This document shows, one piece after another, positions 17,822 to 31,659 of a DNA stretch of 47,706 bases. The DNA lies in assembly GCA_014237975.1 (NCBI GenBank), contig JABACA010000018.1, positions 1 through 47,706 on the forward strand. The letters run 5' to 3'. The number at the start of each line of letters is the position of its first letter. Position 1 is the stretch's first letter. The notes under the pieces were generated by a model. The model was not told the DNA's origin, ran no database searches, and was given only the letters and a program-made list of their open reading frames with translations. Both the position numbers and the translations under genes were made by a program. This DNA comes from Mariniblastus sp. Lineage in GTDB: Bacteria; Planctomycetota; Planctomycetia; Pirellulales; Pirellulaceae.

Positions 17822-18335
17822 CGACGTATTTCCTGATCAGTAAGTGTCTCGGCCTGCGGGGAATCGTATCAGAAGTCGCGATGAGTGTTCAAGTTTCTTC
17901 TCGGTAGAAGATGAAACACGCTTGTCAAAAAAAGAAATCGGAACGGTCTGGGGCAGAGAATACTCCCCGCCAACTTGGTTTGGCTTGCAGATGCTAAATC
18001 AGCCAACGAATGTCAAACCGGGCCCGTTTTCAGCTGGACGAGGGTGGCCCTGGCAATGCAAACGACATTTGGTTTTCGTCGACTCAACCAACCTGGCGTG
18101 TCCGTATTCTGCCAGCCCCAAGTCAGGGCAGCCTGCTGCCGCGTATCAATTTGGTTTTAATCCCTTTTCGAGACCCATCGAGCCGTTGTTTTTTGATATT
18201 TGCGACGAGTTAGGGGTTGAATAGTATGCTTAAAATGTCAAAATATATTGAGATTCAGTCTCAATATGTTTATTCACATATTTGGCTGTCAAAATTTCAT
18301 GTAACGGTTTTGATCGACTTAGGCGGGCCTTGGTG
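17822..18335. other. Divergent intergenic region containing a metal-operon operator
   Basis: It separates the xylulokinase from the metal ABC operon. A 126-codon frame is open here but its composition is random and it has no ribosome site. The only strong signal is the palindrome at 18245-18267. Confidence 0.65.
18245..18267. promoter_or_regulatory. Palindromic operator candidate (Fur/DtxR-type) before the metal ABC operon
   Basis: ATATTGAGA-TTCAG-TCTCAATAT has perfect 9-bp arms. The core TTGAGA-n5-TCTCAA is similar in style to Fur boxes. It lies 69 bp upstream of the ATG of the binding-protein gene. TTGAGA (18248-18253) and TATTCA (18271-18276) are 17 nt apart, so the palindrome could overlap a -35 box, as expected for a repressor site. 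The regulator is inferred, not seen. Confidence 0.65.
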
Positions 18336-19286
18336 ATGCGGAATTTGTTTCTTTTAGTAATCGGTTTGATTCTAATTGGTTGCGCTGCGGAGTTGACGCT
18401 GAACTCGGGTCATCCGGCTGCCGAGGAAAAACAGGGAGCTCTGAATCTGGTTGCGACGACCGGACAAATCAACTCGGCCCTGTTGAAATTGACCGAGGGC
18501 ACCGACACTCACATCAAGTTGTTTTGCGGTCCGGGCGTCGATCCTCATTCGTTTCGTGCGAGTACACGTGACATTCAGGCGATGAATCATGCCGATGCCA
18601 TTTTCTATAATGGTTTCCATTTGGAAGCAAAACTGTCTGAGCATTTAAGCGACACGTTTCAATCCAAAGCTTGGTCGATGTCATCTGCATTTCCGCGTGA
18701 ATACCGATTGCAATGGGAAGAAGAAGGAGAAGTAGATCCAGGGGCTCCCTTTGATCCCCATATCTGGAATCACTTGCCGGGCTGGTCGATGTGTGTCAAA
18801 GGCCTTTCGGACCAGCTGATCAATCTTGACCCGGCTAACAGGGAAACGTATCAGCAGAACTGTGACGCTTACGTTGCTGAAATCATGGACCTGCACCGAT
18901 GGTCTCAAGCGCGGTTAAAAGAAATCCCGTCGGGCCGGCGGTACCTCGTGAGTGCCCATGATGCATTCAACTATTTCGCCGAAGTCTACGATATGAAGAC
19001 GATGGCCGTTTTGGGTATCGGGAATGATCCGGAGGCCGATATCAAAACCATGCGTCAAGTGGCGGAAAACGTTTGTGAACATCGGGTGCCGGTGATTTTT
19101 TTGGAAACGATCACTAATCCCAAGGTGACGATGGCGTTACAGGAGGCCTGCCAGGCGCGTGATTGGGAGGTCCAAATCGCCTCCCATTCACTGTATTCAG
19201 ATGATCTTGGCGAGTCCGCTCCCTACGACACGTTTCTGGGTGCGTTCAAATCGAATGTCGAGCTCATTTCGGCATCTCTCAGGTAA
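18336..19286 (+). CDS. Metal-binding lipoprotein of an ABC importer (TroA/ZnuA family)
   Basis: 316 residues. The ATG at 18336 gives a lipoprotein signal, MRNLFLLVIGLILIGC, with lipobox Cys16. The four metal ligands of the cluster A-I binding proteins are in place: His71 (VDPHSF), His142 (FDPHIW), His208 (SAHDAFNYF) and Asp289 or Asp290 (LYSDDLG). A His at the third position is found in TroA and zinc proteins, whereas dedicated Mn proteins usually have Glu. It captures Zn(II) or Mn(II) outside the membrane and delivers it to the permeases encoded downstream. First gene of a four-gene operon; the next starts 8 bp later. A palindrome upstream suggests metal repression. Confidence 0.92.
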   Translation: MRNLFLLVIGLILIGCAAELTLNSGHPAAEEKQGALNLVATTGQINSALLKLTEGTDTHIKLFCGPGVDPHSFRASTRDIQAMNHADAIFYNGFHLEAKLSEHLSDTFQSKAWSMSSAFPREYRLQWEEEGEVDPGAPFDPHIWNHLPGWSMCVKGLSDQLINLDPANRETYQQNCDAYVAEIMDLHRWSQARLKEIPSGRRYLVSAHDAFNYFAEVYDMKTMAVLGIGNDPEADIKTMRQVAENVCEHRVPVIFLETITNPKVTMALQEACQARDWEVQIASHSLYSDDLGESAPYDTFLGAFKSNVELISASLR

Positions 19287-19294
19287 GGCAGGTC

Positions 19295-20101
19295 ATGTTG
19301 GACAACGATCCTGCATTGAGCCTCAAGGGGCTGACCGTTGCTTATGATACCGAGCCTGTTCTGTGGAACGTCGACTTGGAAGTGCCCGCCGGTGTGTTGA
19401 TGGGAGTGGTCGGTCCCAATGGGGCAGGCAAGAGTACGTTGTTAAAAGCCGTGTTAGGCATCCTTCCCTCCTTGGCTGGTGCGATCCGTGTTTTTGGTCA
19501 GCCGTATTCCGCTCAACGAACCCTTATCGGCTATGTACCGCAACGCTCCAGCGTCGATTGGGATTTTCCAACGACAGTCCTGGATTTAGTTTTAATGGGA
19601 ACCTATGGCCGGCTTGGCTGGTTTCGTCGTCCCGGCAACGCCGAACGGAAAGCGGCCCGCCAGGCTCTGGAGCGAGTACAAATGGCGGAATTTGCAAATC
19701 GTCAAATCGGGGAATTATCTGGAGGGCAGCAACAACGAGTTTTCCTGGCTCGCGCCTTTGTTCAGGATGCGCCGCTATTGTTGATGGACGAACCATTTGC
19801 CGGGGTGGATGCGACCACGGAACAAACGCTTGTCGATTTGATGCGAGAGTTGCGGCAGAAGGGGAAAACGTTGGTCATCGTTCATCATGATTTGACGACG
19901 GTTTGTGAGTACTTTGACCAGGTTGCATTGCTCAACAGGAAAGTCATTGGCGCTGGCCATGTGTCGAACGTTTTCACTACTGAATTGCTGGAAAAGACCT
20001 ACGGCGGTTCGTTAAATCAATGCAAGGTCGCTTGCCGGCAATTTTCCACGTTGACCTCCGAGTCCATTTCCAGGAATCAGGATGGTCATGCTGATGATTG
20101 A
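19295..20101 (+). CDS. Metal ABC transporter ATP-binding protein (TroB/ZnuC type)
   Basis: 268 residues. Walker A GPNGAGKST, Q-loop VPQRSSVDWDFP, signature LSGGQQQR, Walker B LLLMDEPF and the switch histidine in VIVHHDL are all present. The VPQRSSVDWDFPTTV segment is typical of manganese/zinc importers. The ATG at 19295 has a GGCAGG site just upstream. It drives import through the two permeases encoded next; its 3' end overlaps the first permease by 20 nt, indicating translational coupling. Confidence 0.95.
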   Translation: MLDNDPALSLKGLTVAYDTEPVLWNVDLEVPAGVLMGVVGPNGAGKSTLLKAVLGILPSLAGAIRVFGQPYSAQRTLIGYVPQRSSVDWDFPTTVLDLVLMGTYGRLGWFRRPGNAERKAARQALERVQMAEFANRQIGELSGGQQQRVFLARAFVQDAPLLLMDEPFAGVDATTEQTLVDLMRELRQKGKTLVIVHHDLTTVCEYFDQVALLNRKVIGAGHVSNVFTTELLEKTYGGSLNQCKVACRQFSTLTSESISRNQDGHADD

Positions 20102-21026
20102 GCTGCTGACTGACTATACGTTTCGAACCGTGCTGCTGGGAACCGCCATGATTGGTGCCGTGAGTGGTGCATTGGGCTGTTTTGCCTACCTGCGGCGGCA
20201 GAGTTTGATTGGCGATGTTGTTTCCCACTCGTCCCTGTTTGGCGTCATGTTGTTCTTCCTGGCCAGTTACTGGTTGACGGGCCAAGGCAGCAAATCGCTT
20301 GTGGTTTTAATTCCAGGCGCGATTTGCGCCGGGACGGCCGCACTCTTGTTGACCCGAACGGTGGTTCAGAGAACTCGACTCAAACAGGACAGTAGCCTGG
20401 GTGTCATGTTGGCGATATTTTTTGGAGCGGGAATCGTCTTGTTGCGGTGGGTCCAGCGCGTGGATCCACCGATTCCGGGAAGGCGTGGGCTGGAAGACTA
20501 TCTGTTTGGCATGGCGGCGGCCATGACACAGGATGATCTGTGGATGATTGGCATTCTCGGATTCCTGGCCATTCTGGTGATGTTGTTGCTCTGGAAAGAG
20601 CTCAAGGTGTATACCTTCGACCCACTTTTTTCACACAGCCTGGGGTATCGCACCGCGAAACTCGATACGTTGCTGGTCATGATACTGGTTGTCGGGATCG
20701 TGATTGGAATCCAGTCGGTCGGCGTTGTGTTGATGATTGCGCTCCTGATTACCCCGGCCAGTGCTGCCAGGCAATGGACGCGGCGATTGGGGACGATGGT
20801 CATTCTTGCCTCGTTGACAGGGGCTGTTTGTGGACTGGTAGGGTCGGTCATCAGTGCCACCTATTCGCATGTTCCAACTGGCCCGGTCATTGTATTGGCA
20901 TCGACACTTATTTTTGTTGTCTCGCTGATGTTGGCGCCCGGTCGTGGCATCGTGTCGCGAATGCTTCATCGTAGCAAGTTGATGTCGACGATTCGCCAAC
21001 CGAATGCCGGGGGCGATCTGCCATGA
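20082..21026 (+). CDS. Metal ABC transporter permease 1 (ABC-3 family)
   Basis: 314 residues with eight or nine hydrophobic helices. The N-terminus has FLGTAMIGAVSG-like and DVVSHSSLFGVML segments, and the middle has LGVMLAIFFGAGIVLL and LKVYTFDPLFSHSLG, all matching ABC-3 (TroC/TroD/ZnuB) permeases. Three in-frame ATGs at 20082, 20088 and 20094 are possible starts; AGGA precedes the first. It overlaps the ATPase gene by 20 nt and the next permease by 4 nt. It forms the membrane channel, probably as a heterodimer with that partner. Confidence 0.92.
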   Translation: MVMLMIELLTDYTFRTVLLGTAMIGAVSGALGCFAYLRRQSLIGDVVSHSSLFGVMLFFLASYWLTGQGSKSLVVLIPGAICAGTAALLLTRTVVQRTRLKQDSSLGVMLAIFFGAGIVLLRWVQRVDPPIPGRRGLEDYLFGMAAAMTQDDLWMIGILGFLAILVMLLLWKELKVYTFDPLFSHSLGYRTAKLDTLLVMILVVGIVIGIQSVGVVLMIALLITPASAARQWTRRLGTMVILASLTGAVCGLVGSVISATYSHVPTGPVIVLASTLIFVVSLMLAPGRGIVSRMLHRSKLMSTIRQPNAGGDLP

Positions 21027-22129
21027 GTCTTGTTTTTTGGACACTGGCCATTGCCCTGATCACCGCGGTGACGTGTGCTTTGTGTGGTACTTACCTGGTT
21101 GTCAAGAAAGAGGCGCTGGTATCGGAAGGAATCAGCCATGCCGTTCTGCCCGGAATCATTGTCGGTTACCTGGTGTTTCAAGATCGCAGTTCGCCGTTGT
21201 TGATTCTGGCGGCGGCAGCCACCGGCTTGCTGATGGTCGGTTTGGTCCAGTTAATCAAACGGACCCGCCTGGTGGATGGGGATGCATCCCTGGGAATTGT
21301 ATTTTCTGCCATGTTCAGCGGCGGCGTGATTTTGGCCAGTCAAAATCTGCGCAATGTTCACTTCCATGCGCAGTGTATCATTGATGGGAATCTGGCGACG
21401 GCAGCCCTGAAAACAGTGCAATGGGGTGATGTCGACCTGGGGCCCCAGGCATTCTGGATGATGGCATTGACGTTGGCCCTGGTGCTTACGTTCATCCTGA
21501 CGTTTTACAAAGAGCTGAAGCTGATGGCGTTTGATGAATCGCTCGCTCGCAGTATGGGATTTCGGCCCGTACTGATGCATTTGGTCTGGCTGGGGCTGGT
21601 TTCGATAACGACTGTCAGTGCCTTTGAAGCGGCCGGTTCGATCCTGGTGGTGGCCTTGATGATTGCTCCACCGGCGGCCGCCTATCTGTTGACGAAGAAT
21701 CTGTTTCCGATGTTGAACTGGAGTGTCGTTATCGCTGTGGCTAGTTCGGTGGTCGGGGTTTATGCCGGGTATCACCTCGATATTTCGCCGACCGGTCCGA
21801 TCGCCTTGGCGGCCGGCCTGTTCTTTTTGGGTGTTGCCCTGTTTGCACCGGGTCAAGGAATTTATTCGCGTTGGCAATTGCGACGGCAGCAAAAGTCATC
21901 CGTCTTCGAGCAATTGTTGTTGGTTCAACTGGCGGGAAAAACGGATCATGCCGCCGCTGCTGAAACACCGAGAAGCCCGGAGTCGTTGTTCCGGCAAGTG
22001 GCCTGGAGCCGGCGTCAATTCGAGGCGGCACTGGGGCGATGCCTGGAACGCAAGTGGATTCTCCGCCAGGGCCAGCAGTACCTGATTACCCAGGATGGCA
22101 GGGTTCACGTTGAGAAAGACCTCTACTGA
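21023..22129 (+). CDS. Metal ABC transporter permease 2 with C-terminal winged-helix-like domain
   Basis: 368 residues. The first 280 form an ABC-3 permease (LVVKKEALVSEGISHAVLPG, LGIVFSAMFSGGVIL, KELKLMAFDESLARSMG). The last 86 residues are soluble, starting at RWQLRRQQKSSVFEQLLL and continuing SPESLFRQVAWSRRQFEAAL and CLERKWILRQGQQYLITQDG. That reads as helix-turn-helix plus a beta wing, like the N-terminal half of a DtxR-type regulator. Chlamydial YtgCR is a known permease-repressor fusion of this type. The protein may therefore sense metal or regulate the operon, but no metal ligands of DtxR are evident. ATGA overlap with the preceding permease. Confidence 0.9.
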   Translation: MSLVFWTLAIALITAVTCALCGTYLVVKKEALVSEGISHAVLPGIIVGYLVFQDRSSPLLILAAAATGLLMVGLVQLIKRTRLVDGDASLGIVFSAMFSGGVILASQNLRNVHFHAQCIIDGNLATAALKTVQWGDVDLGPQAFWMMALTLALVLTFILTFYKELKLMAFDESLARSMGFRPVLMHLVWLGLVSITTVSAFEAAGSILVVALMIAPPAAAYLLTKNLFPMLNWSVVIAVASSVVGVYAGYHLDISPTGPIALAAGLFFLGVALFAPGQGIYSRWQLRRQQKSSVFEQLLLVQLAGKTDHAAAAETPRSPESLFRQVAWSRRQFEAALGRCLERKWILRQGQQYLITQDGRVHVEKDLY

Positions 22130-23019: not shown

Positions 23020-23259
23020 ATCGATTGAGCTTCCCTCTGGTTTTAGAGCCTGAAAACCCGTCCAGATAAAACGATTCGCCGGTTAAATTAGGTGTGGAGA
23101 CGTTTTGAATGAGCCGACGTTTCCCCGAAAGCCGCTTTCATAACAGAAAAAGGGTGCAAATTCAGGGTAAACTTGCTGCCGATATTTACTGGGAATCTGG
23201 CTCAATTGCTGTACAATTACGCGTTGGGAATAAGGTTTTGTTTGGCGAAGAGTAATATC

Positions 23260-24678
23260 ATGATTCACTTTCCTGTATGTGTTGTTCAACGAGTCTGTTT
23301 CTCGTCGGCATTGTTAATGGTCTTTGCGTTGGGATGCCAACGATCGGCCGAACCGGTAGCGGATCAGACGCAGCCGTCGGCTCCGGCTAATCCAACTGCT
23401 TCCAGTTCGCCCGATTCGGCGGTACCACCGGCCGCGACTAGCAATCAGGGTTTGCCCGCTGCGAATTCCGCTCCGGGGCAACCGCCAGGTGGTGTAACAC
23501 CTCCCAGTGGTACGAATCCTGGCTCTACCAACGGTAACACCCCTCCATCTGGTAATACCACACCCGCTGAAACTCCCGCCCCTCCATCCGGTAATAGCAC
23601 ACCTACTGAAACTCCTACCCCTCCGGCCAATGCTGGAAATACGAACACGCCCAATCCACCTGGACAGGTGCCTCCGCGTGAACCCAATATGGTAAATAAA
23701 CCAGGGGATGCGGATACTGCTGGAACCGATGCGAGTTCCAATCAACCGGGTTCCGGTGCGGGTAATAATCCGTCCGGAGCAGGAATTCCAGGAGCTCCTA
23801 AAAGACCGGCAGCTCCGGCGGGCGCCGGAGTTGGCGACAAGATCCAGATCATTGAAGGCAAGGATCTGGATGGCGTAGAATTTTCTCTGGAAGATTACCA
23901 GGGCAAGGTGATGATGATCGATTTCTGGGGCGATTGGTGACCTCCCTGCCGTGCGATGTACGATCACGAGCGGTCGCTCGTCAACAAGTATAGTGGACGC
24001 CCCTTTGTGTTACTGGGGATTAATAATGATGAAGAAGCTGATATTGCCCAGGAAGCTGTCAAGACCAACAACCTGAATTGGCGTTCCTGGTATGACGGAT
24101 CAGGGTCGATCGCCAAGGCATTTTCCATCGTGGGCTATCCCACGATTCTTCTGGTGGATCACCATGGCGTGATTCGTTACCGATCACCTTTTCAGGTCGA
24201 TCTGGATGATGCGATTGCCGAGTTGGTTAAAGAGGCCGAGGGAGAAGGCGTGACGGGTGGCGCTGAGCCGAAGCCCAAGCTGCGCGAATTTGTGGACTCG
24301 ACCGGTGAACACAAGACGGTTGCATCCTATGCTGGCTATGCGGATGGCAACGTTGCGTTAGAAACCGAAGAGGGTAAAACCGCTCAGGTGCCTTGGTCCC
24401 GCTTGAGCCTGGAGGACCAGCGGTATGTTGCCAACCAGCGTCTCAAGGCGGCCGATTTGGGGAGGATTGCCAAGGAGGAAATCGCGTTTCCGTTCGACAA
24501 TCCGCAACAGTTCTGGGACGAAAGTGGGCAACACTCCATCACGGGAACCTACATTACGCTTGACAACCGACAGGCCATTATTTGGCAGGAGGACGGCTCC
24601 GAAGTTCGTGTCTCCTATAGCAAGTTGAGCGATGAAGCGAAAGAACTGATCAAGAAAGAACTCAAAAAACGAAAATGA
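23260..24678 (+). CDS. Thioredoxin-like (TlpA-type) lipoprotein with in-frame TGA at the active-site Cys: candidate selenoprotein, SHD1 domains
   Basis: 472 residues if TGA at 23938-23940 is read as selenocysteine (Sec227). The start gives a lipoprotein signal ending LMVFALGC (Cys26). Residues 27-190 are a Pro/Thr/Ser/Gly-rich linker with a 13-residue repeat. A TlpA-like thioredoxin domain follows (about 195-330): MMIDFWGDW, then TGA, then PPCRAMYDHE, and later the cis-Pro GYPTILLVD. TGA sits exactly where the first Cys of WCxxC belongs; the resolving Cys230 is kept and the frame stays open to 24678. Two SHD1-like domains follow (about 337-392 and 408-468). A SECIS-like hairpin is at 23966-23981. 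Without Sec, the product would stop before the redox motif. It probably acts as an anchored extracytoplasmic thiol/selenol oxidoreductase. Confidence 0.82.
23542..23619 (+). repeat. Two 39-bp tandem repeats coding a Pro/Thr linker
   Basis: Two adjacent 39-bp units encode PPSGNTTPAETPA and PPSGNSTPTETPT. They form part of the extended linker between the lipid anchor and the thioredoxin domain of the surrounding gene. Confidence 0.75.
23957..23992 (+). promoter_or_regulatory. Candidate bacterial SECIS element
   Basis: ACGAGC-GGUC-GCUCGU (23966-23981) is a 6-bp stem with loop GGUC that begins 32 nt after the TGA. A lower stem UGUAC/GUAUA (23957-23961 with 23988-23992) extends it across an internal loop. 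Bacterial SECIS loops carry a G in the first two positions within about 16-37 nt of UGA, and the E. coli fdhF loop contains the same GGUC. Binding by SelB is inferred. Confidence 0.68.
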
Positions 24679-25856: not shown

Positions 25857-26816
25857 ATGAAGAATTTTTCGACGACGATGATTGCGATCCTGGTTTTGGT
25901 GCTGCAGGTCCGTTGCGGGGTGGCCGCTTGTCCGCAATCGAATGAAGTTTCGATTGAAAAACAGGATGGAGTGGTGGTGGTCAACGTGGGCGGGGAGCTG
26001 TTTACCAAATACGATTTTAAAAGTTACAAGCGGCCTATCTTTTTCCCGGTTCTTGGGCCGGGCCAGGTGTCGATGACGCGCTGCTACCCGATGCAAAAGG
26101 TTCCAGGCGAAGCGAGTGATCACCCGCACCACAAGTCGATCTGGTTTGCTCACGGGGTGGTCGACGGTGTGGATTTCTGGAAAGAGGATGGTTCCATTAA
26201 ACATCGTTCTTTTGATGCCTTCGATCCTGCCAAGGGATTTACGGTCACCGATCACTGGCTCGATCCGACGACGCAAAAACCACTGTTGGTGGTGACAGGA
26301 AAATTCGAATTTGGTACCAGTCAATCGGCGCGATGGATCGACTGCGAGTATGTTCTCCAGGCGCCGGAAAAAGAGGTTTTGCTGGGTGATACGAAAGAGG
26401 GGACGTTTGCCATCCGGACCCATCCCGATTTGCGATTGAATGCCAATAAAAAACAGGGTGTCAAGGAAGTGTTCGGCAGTGCTCGAAATAGTGCGGGAGA
26501 TACGGGCAAGTCGGTCTGGGGGAAATCAGCCAAGTGGGTTGATTATTTTGGAGCGGTTGACGGCCAAGCGGTTGGGATCACCATGTTGGATCATCCCGCC
26601 AACTTGCGGCATCCGACGACTTGGCATGCCCGGGAATACGGATTGGTTGCGGCTAACCCGTTCGGTTACCATCATTTCAAACAGCAGAAAAAAGGGGCCG
26701 GTGATTACCGCTTGAAGCCGGGAGAACCACTCACCCTCCGCTACCGTGCCGTCTTCTATGAAGGTGAGCGATCGGTCGACGAGGTGGAAGCTTGCTTCCA
26801 GGAATTTGCCAACTGA
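25857..26816 (+). CDS. Secreted DUF6807 (PmoA-like) family protein
   Basis: 319 residues with a signal peptide (MKNFSTTMIAILVLVLQVRC). The signature HPHHKSIWFAHGVVDGVDFW with four His in a row, then GTFAIRTHPDLRL, AKWVDYFG and MLDHPANLRHPTTWHARE, mark the DUF6807 family, often labelled PmoA in planctomycetes. The name is misleading: this is not methane monooxygenase. Family members are abundant in carbohydrate-degrading bacteria and the His-rich site suggests metal or sugar binding, but the reaction is not established. It starts 12 bp after the UspA-like gene. Confidence 0.85.
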   Translation: MKNFSTTMIAILVLVLQVRCGVAACPQSNEVSIEKQDGVVVVNVGGELFTKYDFKSYKRPIFFPVLGPGQVSMTRCYPMQKVPGEASDHPHHKSIWFAHGVVDGVDFWKEDGSIKHRSFDAFDPAKGFTVTDHWLDPTTQKPLLVVTGKFEFGTSQSARWIDCEYVLQAPEKEVLLGDTKEGTFAIRTHPDLRLNANKKQGVKEVFGSARNSAGDTGKSVWGKSAKWVDYFGAVDGQAVGITMLDHPANLRHPTTWHAREYGLVAANPFGYHHFKQQKKGAGDYRLKPGEPLTLRYRAVFYEGERSVDEVEACFQEFAN

Positions 26817-30447: not shown

Positions 30448-31659
30448 ATGGCTCGATGTTTAATCTTTGCTTTAACCGTTTGTTTGGCGCTGGCTTCGGT
30501 TGTCCCCGCTCAAACGTTAACCACCGTGTTAGACAATGGTGCTTCGTCGAACCGAGTCGACATGATTTTTGTCGGTGACGGTTACCAGGACTTTGAGATT
30601 GAGACGACTTACGCCGGCCATGTGGACAACACGCTCGGGGCTTTTTTTAATCCCGGCATCAGTCCCTTTCCCCGCTACCAGAATTTCTTTAATGCTCACC
30701 GGGTCAATGTGATTAGCAATGAATCGGGGGCCGATGATCCTGTCAATAATATTTTTGTCGATACGGCACTGGATGCGTCCTACAATATGGGCGGGATCGA
30801 TCGATGTCTTTACTTTAGCACTTCCAAAGCCAACGCGGCCGTGACAACCGCGTTGAGTGGAACCGGTATTGATATCGACATGCGGCTGGGCAGTGTGAAC
30901 TCGGAGAAATACGGTGGTTGTGGTGGTCAGTGGGCGGTCTGGTCAGCCGGTAACAGCGCTGCCCTCGATATTGCCATCCATGAAGTTGGCCACTCGTTTG
31001 CCAATTTGGCTGACGAGTATTTCTACAGTGGTGATACATGGGGCGGGGGTGAGCCCGGCGAGGTAAATGTCACGTCTGACCCGGCTCTTGGTAAATGGGA
31101 TCGCTGGCTCGGCTACACCGATCCCGATTCGGACATCGGGGTCATCGATTATTATGAAGGAGCGCGGTACTACGATTTTGGACTGTATCGTCCCAGTGAT
31201 AATTCGATGATGCGTGCGCTAGATCGTCCGTTTGATGCGATCAGCCGCGAACGCTTTATCGAGGAGATCTACGAAGAAGTGGACCCGCTGGACGACTGGC
31301 AGAGTGAGGGCCCCGCTTATACATCGGGTGACGTCTTGTGGGTCGATTCCGTAGATCCATCGGTGATCAATGTTGAATGGTTTGTGGACGGAGTTTCTGT
31401 CGGGTTGCTTGGTGAATCAGTGACGGTTGACTCACTGGGACTGTCGAACGGGACGTTTACGGTCGAGGCCTTTGGCTATGATTCGATTCTTGATCATTCG
31501 TTTAGCGGAGATTCACTCGATTGGTGGCGACTTGCCGATACCACACCGCTGGAACAGACGGTGACGTGGAGCGTTTTCATGTCTGTCCCAGAGCCGGTAA
31601 CGGCGCCGCTACTCGGTGTTTTCATGATAACGATGGCTTTGGGCCGCCGTAGAAAATGA
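30448..31659 (+). CDS. Secreted M64-like metallopeptidase with PEP-CTERM-like tail
   Basis: 403 residues. A signal peptide (MARCLIFALTVCLALASVVP, cleavage near AQT) precedes an IgA peptidase M64-type domain. The active site HEVGHSFANLADEY carries zinc ligands His178 and His182 and catalytic Glu179; upstream VDMIFVGDGYQDFE is also typical. After it comes a beta domain (SVIN-VEWFVDGVSVG). The end reads VPEPVTAPLLGVFMITMALGRRRK: a PEP motif, hydrophobic stretch and Arg-rich tail, the layout of PEP-CTERM sorting signals processed by exosortase. Probably exported and surface-anchored. Confidence 0.85.
   Translation: MARCLIFALTVCLALASVVPAQTLTTVLDNGASSNRVDMIFVGDGYQDFEIETTYAGHVDNTLGAFFNPGISPFPRYQNFFNAHRVNVISNESGADDPVNNIFVDTALDASYNMGGIDRCLYFSTSKANAAVTTALSGTGIDIDMRLGSVNSEKYGGCGGQWAVWSAGNSAALDIAIHEVGHSFANLADEYFYSGDTWGGGEPGEVNVTSDPALGKWDRWLGYTDPDSDIGVIDYYEGARYYDFGLYRPSDNSMMRALDRPFDAISRERFIEEIYEEVDPLDDWQSEGPAYTSGDVLWVDSVDPSVINVEWFVDGVSVGLLGESVTVDSLGLSNGTFTVEAFGYDSILDHSFSGDSLDWWRLADTTPLEQTVTWSVFMSVPEPVTAPLLGVFMITMALGRRRK

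Follow-up and report, generated by a model that had tools for sequence, protein, structure and literature searches.

A gene of the planctomycete Mariniblastus sp. can be assigned with high confidence to the true selenoproteins, and its product would be an exported oxidoreductase of the TlpA/ResA type that receives selenocysteine (Sec) by SelB- and SECIS-driven insertion. The gene lies in the window, a stretch of 47,706 nucleotides that is contig C99 of a 5.0-Mb draft genome of 404 contigs. Its otherwise open frame contains one internal TGA, which is almost certainly read as Sec. This TGA falls within a thioredoxin-fold domain and is conserved in homologues, a hairpin follows it, and the genome carries genes for Sec insertion. 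The gene appears to belong to a widespread, unnamed subfamily, whose SECIS is unusually constant.

When a ribosome reaches the UGA, SelB with Sec-tRNA(Sec) would be docked on the hairpin with the GGUC loop, 31 nt downstream, and would deliver Sec at the UGA, whereby termination is avoided. The product would be a probably lipid-anchored thiol-disulfide oxidoreductase in which Sec227 attacks and Cys230 resolves, the pair being re-reduced by an extracytoplasmic electron donor. Sec insertion itself, export, redox activity and the donor are predicted from the sequence. Likewise, fold and a signal recognized by eye point to disulfide reduction outside the cytoplasm.

The gene, its product and the selenocysteine genes

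The initial annotation had proposed a TlpA-like selenoprotein whose frame runs across a single TGA at the first Cys of a WCxxC motif, with the second Cys, the cis-Pro and the C-terminal domains intact. Each of these points holds (Table 1). In translation, the first position of W-U-P-P-C is the TGA, and both Cys230 and the cis-Pro are in place. Three Pfam matches span the TGA, AhpC-TSA (PF00578, 66.8 bits, cut-off 26), Redoxin (PF08534, 62.7 bits) and Thioredoxin (PF00085, 37.0 bits), and SHD1 (PF03983, 51.0 bits) follows in frame, its two stretches being the C-terminal domains of the initial annotation; all four exceed their cut-offs. ResA, TlpA and DsbE are among the PDB sequence matches. With its CxxC-type site, cis-Pro motif and thioredoxin fold, the protein is TlpA/ResA-like as judged by sequence alone. 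The mechanical ORF list cuts the gene into 23173-23940 and 23956-24678, and a plain list of this kind splits such genes in two.

Table 1. Parts of the selenoprotein gene, in window coordinates
Feature	Position	Strand	Basis
Complete coding region: 472 residues including Sec227, ended by a normal TGA stop (24676-24678)	23260..24678	+	translation
Hydrophobic N-terminus ending ALGC, lipoprotein-like signal (C26)	23260..23337	+	by eye from translation
Pro/Gly/Asn-rich linker	23338..23829	+	by eye from translation
Thioredoxin-fold domain, residues 191-309, TlpA/ResA-like, Pro294 of GYPT	23830..24186	+	PF00578, PF08534, PF00085; PDB sequence matches
In-frame TGA, predicted Sec codon 227 of W-U-P-P-C	23938..23940	+	translation; TGA at aligned codon in 115 sites
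Bacterial SECIS hairpin ACGAGC-GGTC-GCTCGT, loop 31 nt after TGA	23966..23981	+	
SHD1, best stretch, residues 339-392; Pfam counts a second stretch	24274..24435	+	PF03983

Upstream in the window lies an ABC uptake set of zinc/manganese type (18282-22129), consisting of a ZnuA-like binding protein, an ATPase and two ABC-3 permeases. Downstream, a DUF6807 protein (25857-26816) and a Peptidase_M64-like protein (30448-31659) are encoded. The immediate neighbours with Pfam matches suggest no redox partner among them.

The genome encodes a tRNA-Sec with anticodon TCA (70.2 bits, gathering score 47), and SelA (576 bits), SelB (271 bits) and a SelD domain (264 bits) all score above their cut-offs. The selB gene is truncated at a contig end, being cut at the contig start with about 45 residues missing. 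SelD forms the C-terminal part of a 733-residue fusion (L089:16-2217, on C356 of the same genome, G000) with a pyridine-nucleotide oxidoreductase domain (371.8 bits, cut-off 310); the NCBIfam model fusion_not_SelD also matches this fusion, though its 417 bits fall short of the 700 required. A formate dehydrogenase alpha subunit (FdhA; L321, G000 C133:11397-13406) carries a TGA in AATUHAP and a hairpin with loop GGGCT 18 nt after it. As noted in the initial annotation, no Sec machinery lies within the window: selA, selB, the SelD domain and tRNA-Sec, as well as the TGA-containing FdhA gene, are all located elsewhere in the genome, where that annotation had advised looking for the four sel genes. 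As far as its genes tell, the cell would be able to insert Sec.

Conservation of the TGA and alternative readings

Four further genes of the same genome carry TGA at the aligned codon, two on C351 and one each on C11 and C72. A paralogue with Cys (L002; C166:29536-30063, minus strand) has TGC at this position. Altogether 115 TGA sites were read, 33 from a family sample of 60 genomes and 82 from a phylum sample of 244 genomes; 110 are in other genomes, and with the five genes of this genome all have their TGA at the aligned codon. No other stop is found at that codon in the sites read. The orthologue comparison advised by the initial annotation accordingly yields TGA or a Cys codon at the aligned position, the pattern of UGA aligned with Cys.

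The domain is matched in 42 of the 60 family genomes (own genome included), and the 33 distinct TGA sites fall in 15 of them. The family sites derive from 30 loci and 29 further regions, comprising the stronger matches and the weak ones flagged for TGA; other weak matches lie outside this set. All 15 family genomes with a TGA gene possess tRNA-Sec, as against 22 of the 45 others (Fisher p 1.8e-4). In the phylum sample, strong matches occur in 53 of 244 genomes, and tRNA-Sec is found in 50 of these versus 119 of the 191 others (p 1e-6); none was seen in three genomes with the gene (G087, G120 and G198). Outside the own genome, this sample holds 83 distinct sites, 82 with TGA and one with TGC, taken from 82 loci; some are neighbours below the threshold of that search.

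A tree built from 61 domains of the family set requires 10 changes of the Sec label, compared with 20.4 in shuffles, and 24 of its 58 inner branches are open. Sec and Cys look to have been exchanged several times on this tree.

A Cys gene hit by a nonsense mutation or misread in sequencing, and hence a pseudogene or an artefact, would fit the draft state of the genome and the existence of Cys homologues. The TGA is shared at this codon by five genes of one genome and by 110 sites elsewhere, with no other stop there in the sites read, which rules this out as a general account and leaves it extremely improbable; the initial annotation had already thought a random hit at this codon unlikely. Reassignment of TGA to an ordinary amino acid throughout the genome, for which no supporting point was found, has next to no probability and is rejected, since TGA is a common stop in the window: 30 of its ORFs, picked from the ORF list, end with 13 TGA, 12 TAA and 5 TAG. 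Moreover, selA and the whole remainder of selB read without an internal TGA.

Termination and Sec insertion compete at UGA, which can act as a stop or as a Sec codon. The hairpin and the Sec genes would let the UGA act both ways, as a regulated stop at which a linker-only product of 226 residues is the main form and the full Sec form arises only with plentiful selenium. However, the short product would be without most of the thioredoxin domain, and the parts preceding this domain all differ between the paralogues, which makes such a stop unlikely. A true selenoprotein gene with SelB-driven Sec insertion is the reading we prefer.

A nearly constant hairpin behind the TGA

Published rules for bacterial SECIS (bSECIS) elements describe a loop of 3-9 nt with G in the first two positions, a stem of 4-16 bp, a loop 16-37 nt after the UGA and an energy of -7.5 kcal/mol or lower (PMC13188914). 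The window hairpin agrees with them, having 6 bp, a GGTC loop, a distance of 31 nt and -7.9 kcal/mol. Its core, GAGCGGTCGCTC (GAGC-GGTC-GCTC), is shared without change by 97 of the 115 TGA sites (32 of 33 family rows and 65 of 82 phylum rows), in which 31 nt separate TGA and loop. The rules are obeyed by 96 of the 97 core sites and by 2 of the 18 TGA sites that lack the core; among Cys homologues and codon shuffles the numbers are 1 of 32 and 41 of 485, respectively, as scored by a script that allows no bulge and that, in the positive control (E. coli fdhF), finds the GGTC loop at -2.0 kcal/mol, which fails the -7.5 rule. These results, together with the sel genes, tRNA-Sec and the TGA or Cys of the orthologues, uphold the proposal of a selenoprotein.

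The genome contains five copies of the exact 14-mer: four belong to TGA genes, of which there are five, and one to the Cys paralogue L002. L006, also of this genome, keeps the stem with loop AGTT. A single hairpin common to all selenoprotein genes of the genome is rejected, as the 14-mer is present in only four of the five TGA genes and the FdhA hairpin differs. L002 keeps the exact hairpin despite its TGC and groups on the tree with a Sec row (L074), as if Sec had recently given way to Cys and the SECIS had been left behind.

Among the 18 TGA sites without the exact core, two pass the rules and six more do so only if the loop may lie at 38-39 nt from the TGA, slightly beyond the published 16-37 nt. 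A strong hairpin at this spacing is found in 6 of 17 coreless phylum sites, compared with none of 32 Cys homologues and a single one of 65 core sites. These six Sec relatives (L289, L292, L293, L303, L314 and L318) have strong hairpins of varying sequence. Ten of the 17 coreless phylum sites yielded no good hairpin; L312, L313, L290, L296, L301 and L315 are TGA relatives without one in either spacing range. A longer fold was rejected as support for a SECIS, the 81 nt around the TGA being no more stable than shuffles (z 0.40). The hairpin belongs to no Rfam family at gathering score, and a loose-threshold search gave six matches, to snoRNA and lncRNA families, none of which reached its gathering score.

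A scan of GTDB for TGA, 24 nt and CAYGAGCGGTCGCTCGT returned at least 118 stretches, against an estimated chance expectation of about one. Among the matches listed, 80 loci were fetched, with 81 matches between them; 80 of these are the thioredoxin-like Sec family in frame, and the single unrelated match is L135 (Myxococcales). By their titles, which are labels of metagenome bins, 60 of the 80 fetched loci are from Planctomycetota, 12 from Verrucomicrobiota, 2 from Bacillota, 2 from Myxococcota (one being L135) and 1 from Pseudomonadota, and 3 are unplaced. These matches have the hairpin by construction and were therefore kept out of all measures of conservation. The near-constant hairpin is a DNA word that picked out this family in 80 of 81 matches in the fetched loci.

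Some relatives, from planctomycete and verrucomicrobial bins, have two TGAs three codons apart (UxxU), followed by one copy of the same hairpin. They comprise six of the 81 GTDB matches (L129, L134, L155, L175, L196 and L197) and L077 of the family set.

The constancy extends to synonymous positions. The ERSL codons have a single spelling in all 97 core sites, out of 432 possible. In the 33 family TGA rows, synonymous diversity at codons +9 to +13 is 0.06, 0, 0, 0 and 0, with 0.23-0.79 at other degenerate codons; the same five codons give 0.22, 0.36, 0.79, 0.59 and 0.70 in 21 Cys homologues (score of at least 110, L002 included; weaker Cys rows and Ser/Tyr rows left out). The Val codon just after the stem has a free third base in family rows (0.75), which in phylum rows, where G can lengthen the stem, is mostly G (57 of 65, 0.23).

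These letters might be held simply by a need of the protein for HERSLV, with RNA structure playing no part. The segment lies close behind the active site and is often HEREL-like in Cys homologues, and in the 65 phylum rows two codons that lie beyond the stem likewise show almost no variation (Cys +3, 0.06; Tyr +7, 0.07). Such a need would hardly impose one ERSL spelling on every core site, however, and Cys homologues with similar residues use many spellings. Changes in codon 9 hit the first base, which is not part of the stem, with Tyr or Asn as the result in 3 of the 97 sites, and L305 changes both partners of one pair (GAACGGTCGTTC), replacing Leu by Phe. A requirement of the protein alone is consequently very improbable, and a hairpin acting as SECIS is preferred.

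The constancy of this SECIS can be explained if most stem bases double as codon bases, so that most single stem changes alter a residue or a pair, and if the loop and closing pair are, as is probable, what SelB reads. Planctomycete FdhA genes served as a control, with 19 of the 20 control regions coming from genomes that also carry the thioredoxin-like Sec gene. GGTC stands at the loop start in 19 of 20 fetched sites, the best loop mostly being GGTCT. The hairpin top contains three nearly constant codons (0.0, 0.1 and 0.1) between varying ones (0.47 and 0.37), in a profile of 21 rows of which one (L321) is in the wrong frame. Since this control likewise has a constant hairpin top, the constancy in the thioredoxin-like family is greater in extent and perhaps not different in kind; much of it probably reflects ordinary SelB recognition and double coding.

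A more tentative and rather doubtful proposal is that selection acts on the primary sequence of the SECIS as well as on its structure, the 12-nt core being kept without a changed letter across Planctomycetota and Verrucomicrobiota and dictating ERSL. The core is kept even where AGG with TCT, CTT or a loop letter conforming to the rules (CGT) was open: the silent two-sided change AGG/TCT, silent CTT and silent CGT are all absent from the 97 sites. Under such selection, the hairpin may have a second role beyond SelB docking, for example in readthrough tuning or mRNA control, and the core would serve as a DNA tag for finding selenoprotein genes. The family offers a natural experiment on how residues of a protein are dictated by an RNA signal within its gene: codons and residues loosen once Cys stands in for Sec.

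Comparison with known systems

Sec proteins with UxxC sites of the PF00578/TlpA type are already in print, and the kind is known. Table 1 of PMC13188914 lists Prx-like thiol:disulfide oxidoreductases (PF00578; UxxC, UxxU), Redoxin (PF08534, UxxC) and thiol-disulfide isomerase-like proteins (cd02966, UxxC). Related Sec families appear in PMC1794560, PMC1088965 and PMC2398784, the last with a UxxC family in COG0526, and selenoproteins of two planctomycetes in PMC4807772. PMC12013277 does not contain the terms sought. Titles and abstract openings in the literature searched hold no description of the subfamily or its constant hairpin; supplementary selenoprotein lists (PMC4807772) lie outside that search and may hold such genes. 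The present gene adds a widespread, multi-copy selenoprotein subfamily in bacteria whose selenoproteins are little described in this literature.

The window protein resembles the families of PMC13188914 in its PF00578 and PF08534 matches, its UxxC site (UPPC) and the UxxU of some relatives. It differs in its constant hairpin and SHD1 tail, which the descriptions there, the sole basis of this comparison, do not mention for them. The Cys proteins ResA (NF002854) and TlpA (NF047696) have the same type of domain, although Sec replaces the first Cys here and the window protein scores 58.8 and 40.9 bits, far below their cut-offs of 170 and 230. DsbE is similarly missed (39.5 bits, cut-off 123), and the window protein and two relatives stay below the cut-off of every NCBIfam model. 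The protein would therefore work like these enzymes at most, standing outside the named models. The ResA-like WAxxUGC family (WAxxUGC_long, NF041054) also contains Sec, but is matched weakly (22 bits, cut-off 300) and has the motif UGC instead of UPPC. The bSECIS elements of E. coli fdhF and planctomycete FdhA share GGTC at the loop start with the present hairpin, yet have another stem and place the loop 18 nt from the TGA instead of 31, and the FdhA of the same genome has the loop GGGCT.
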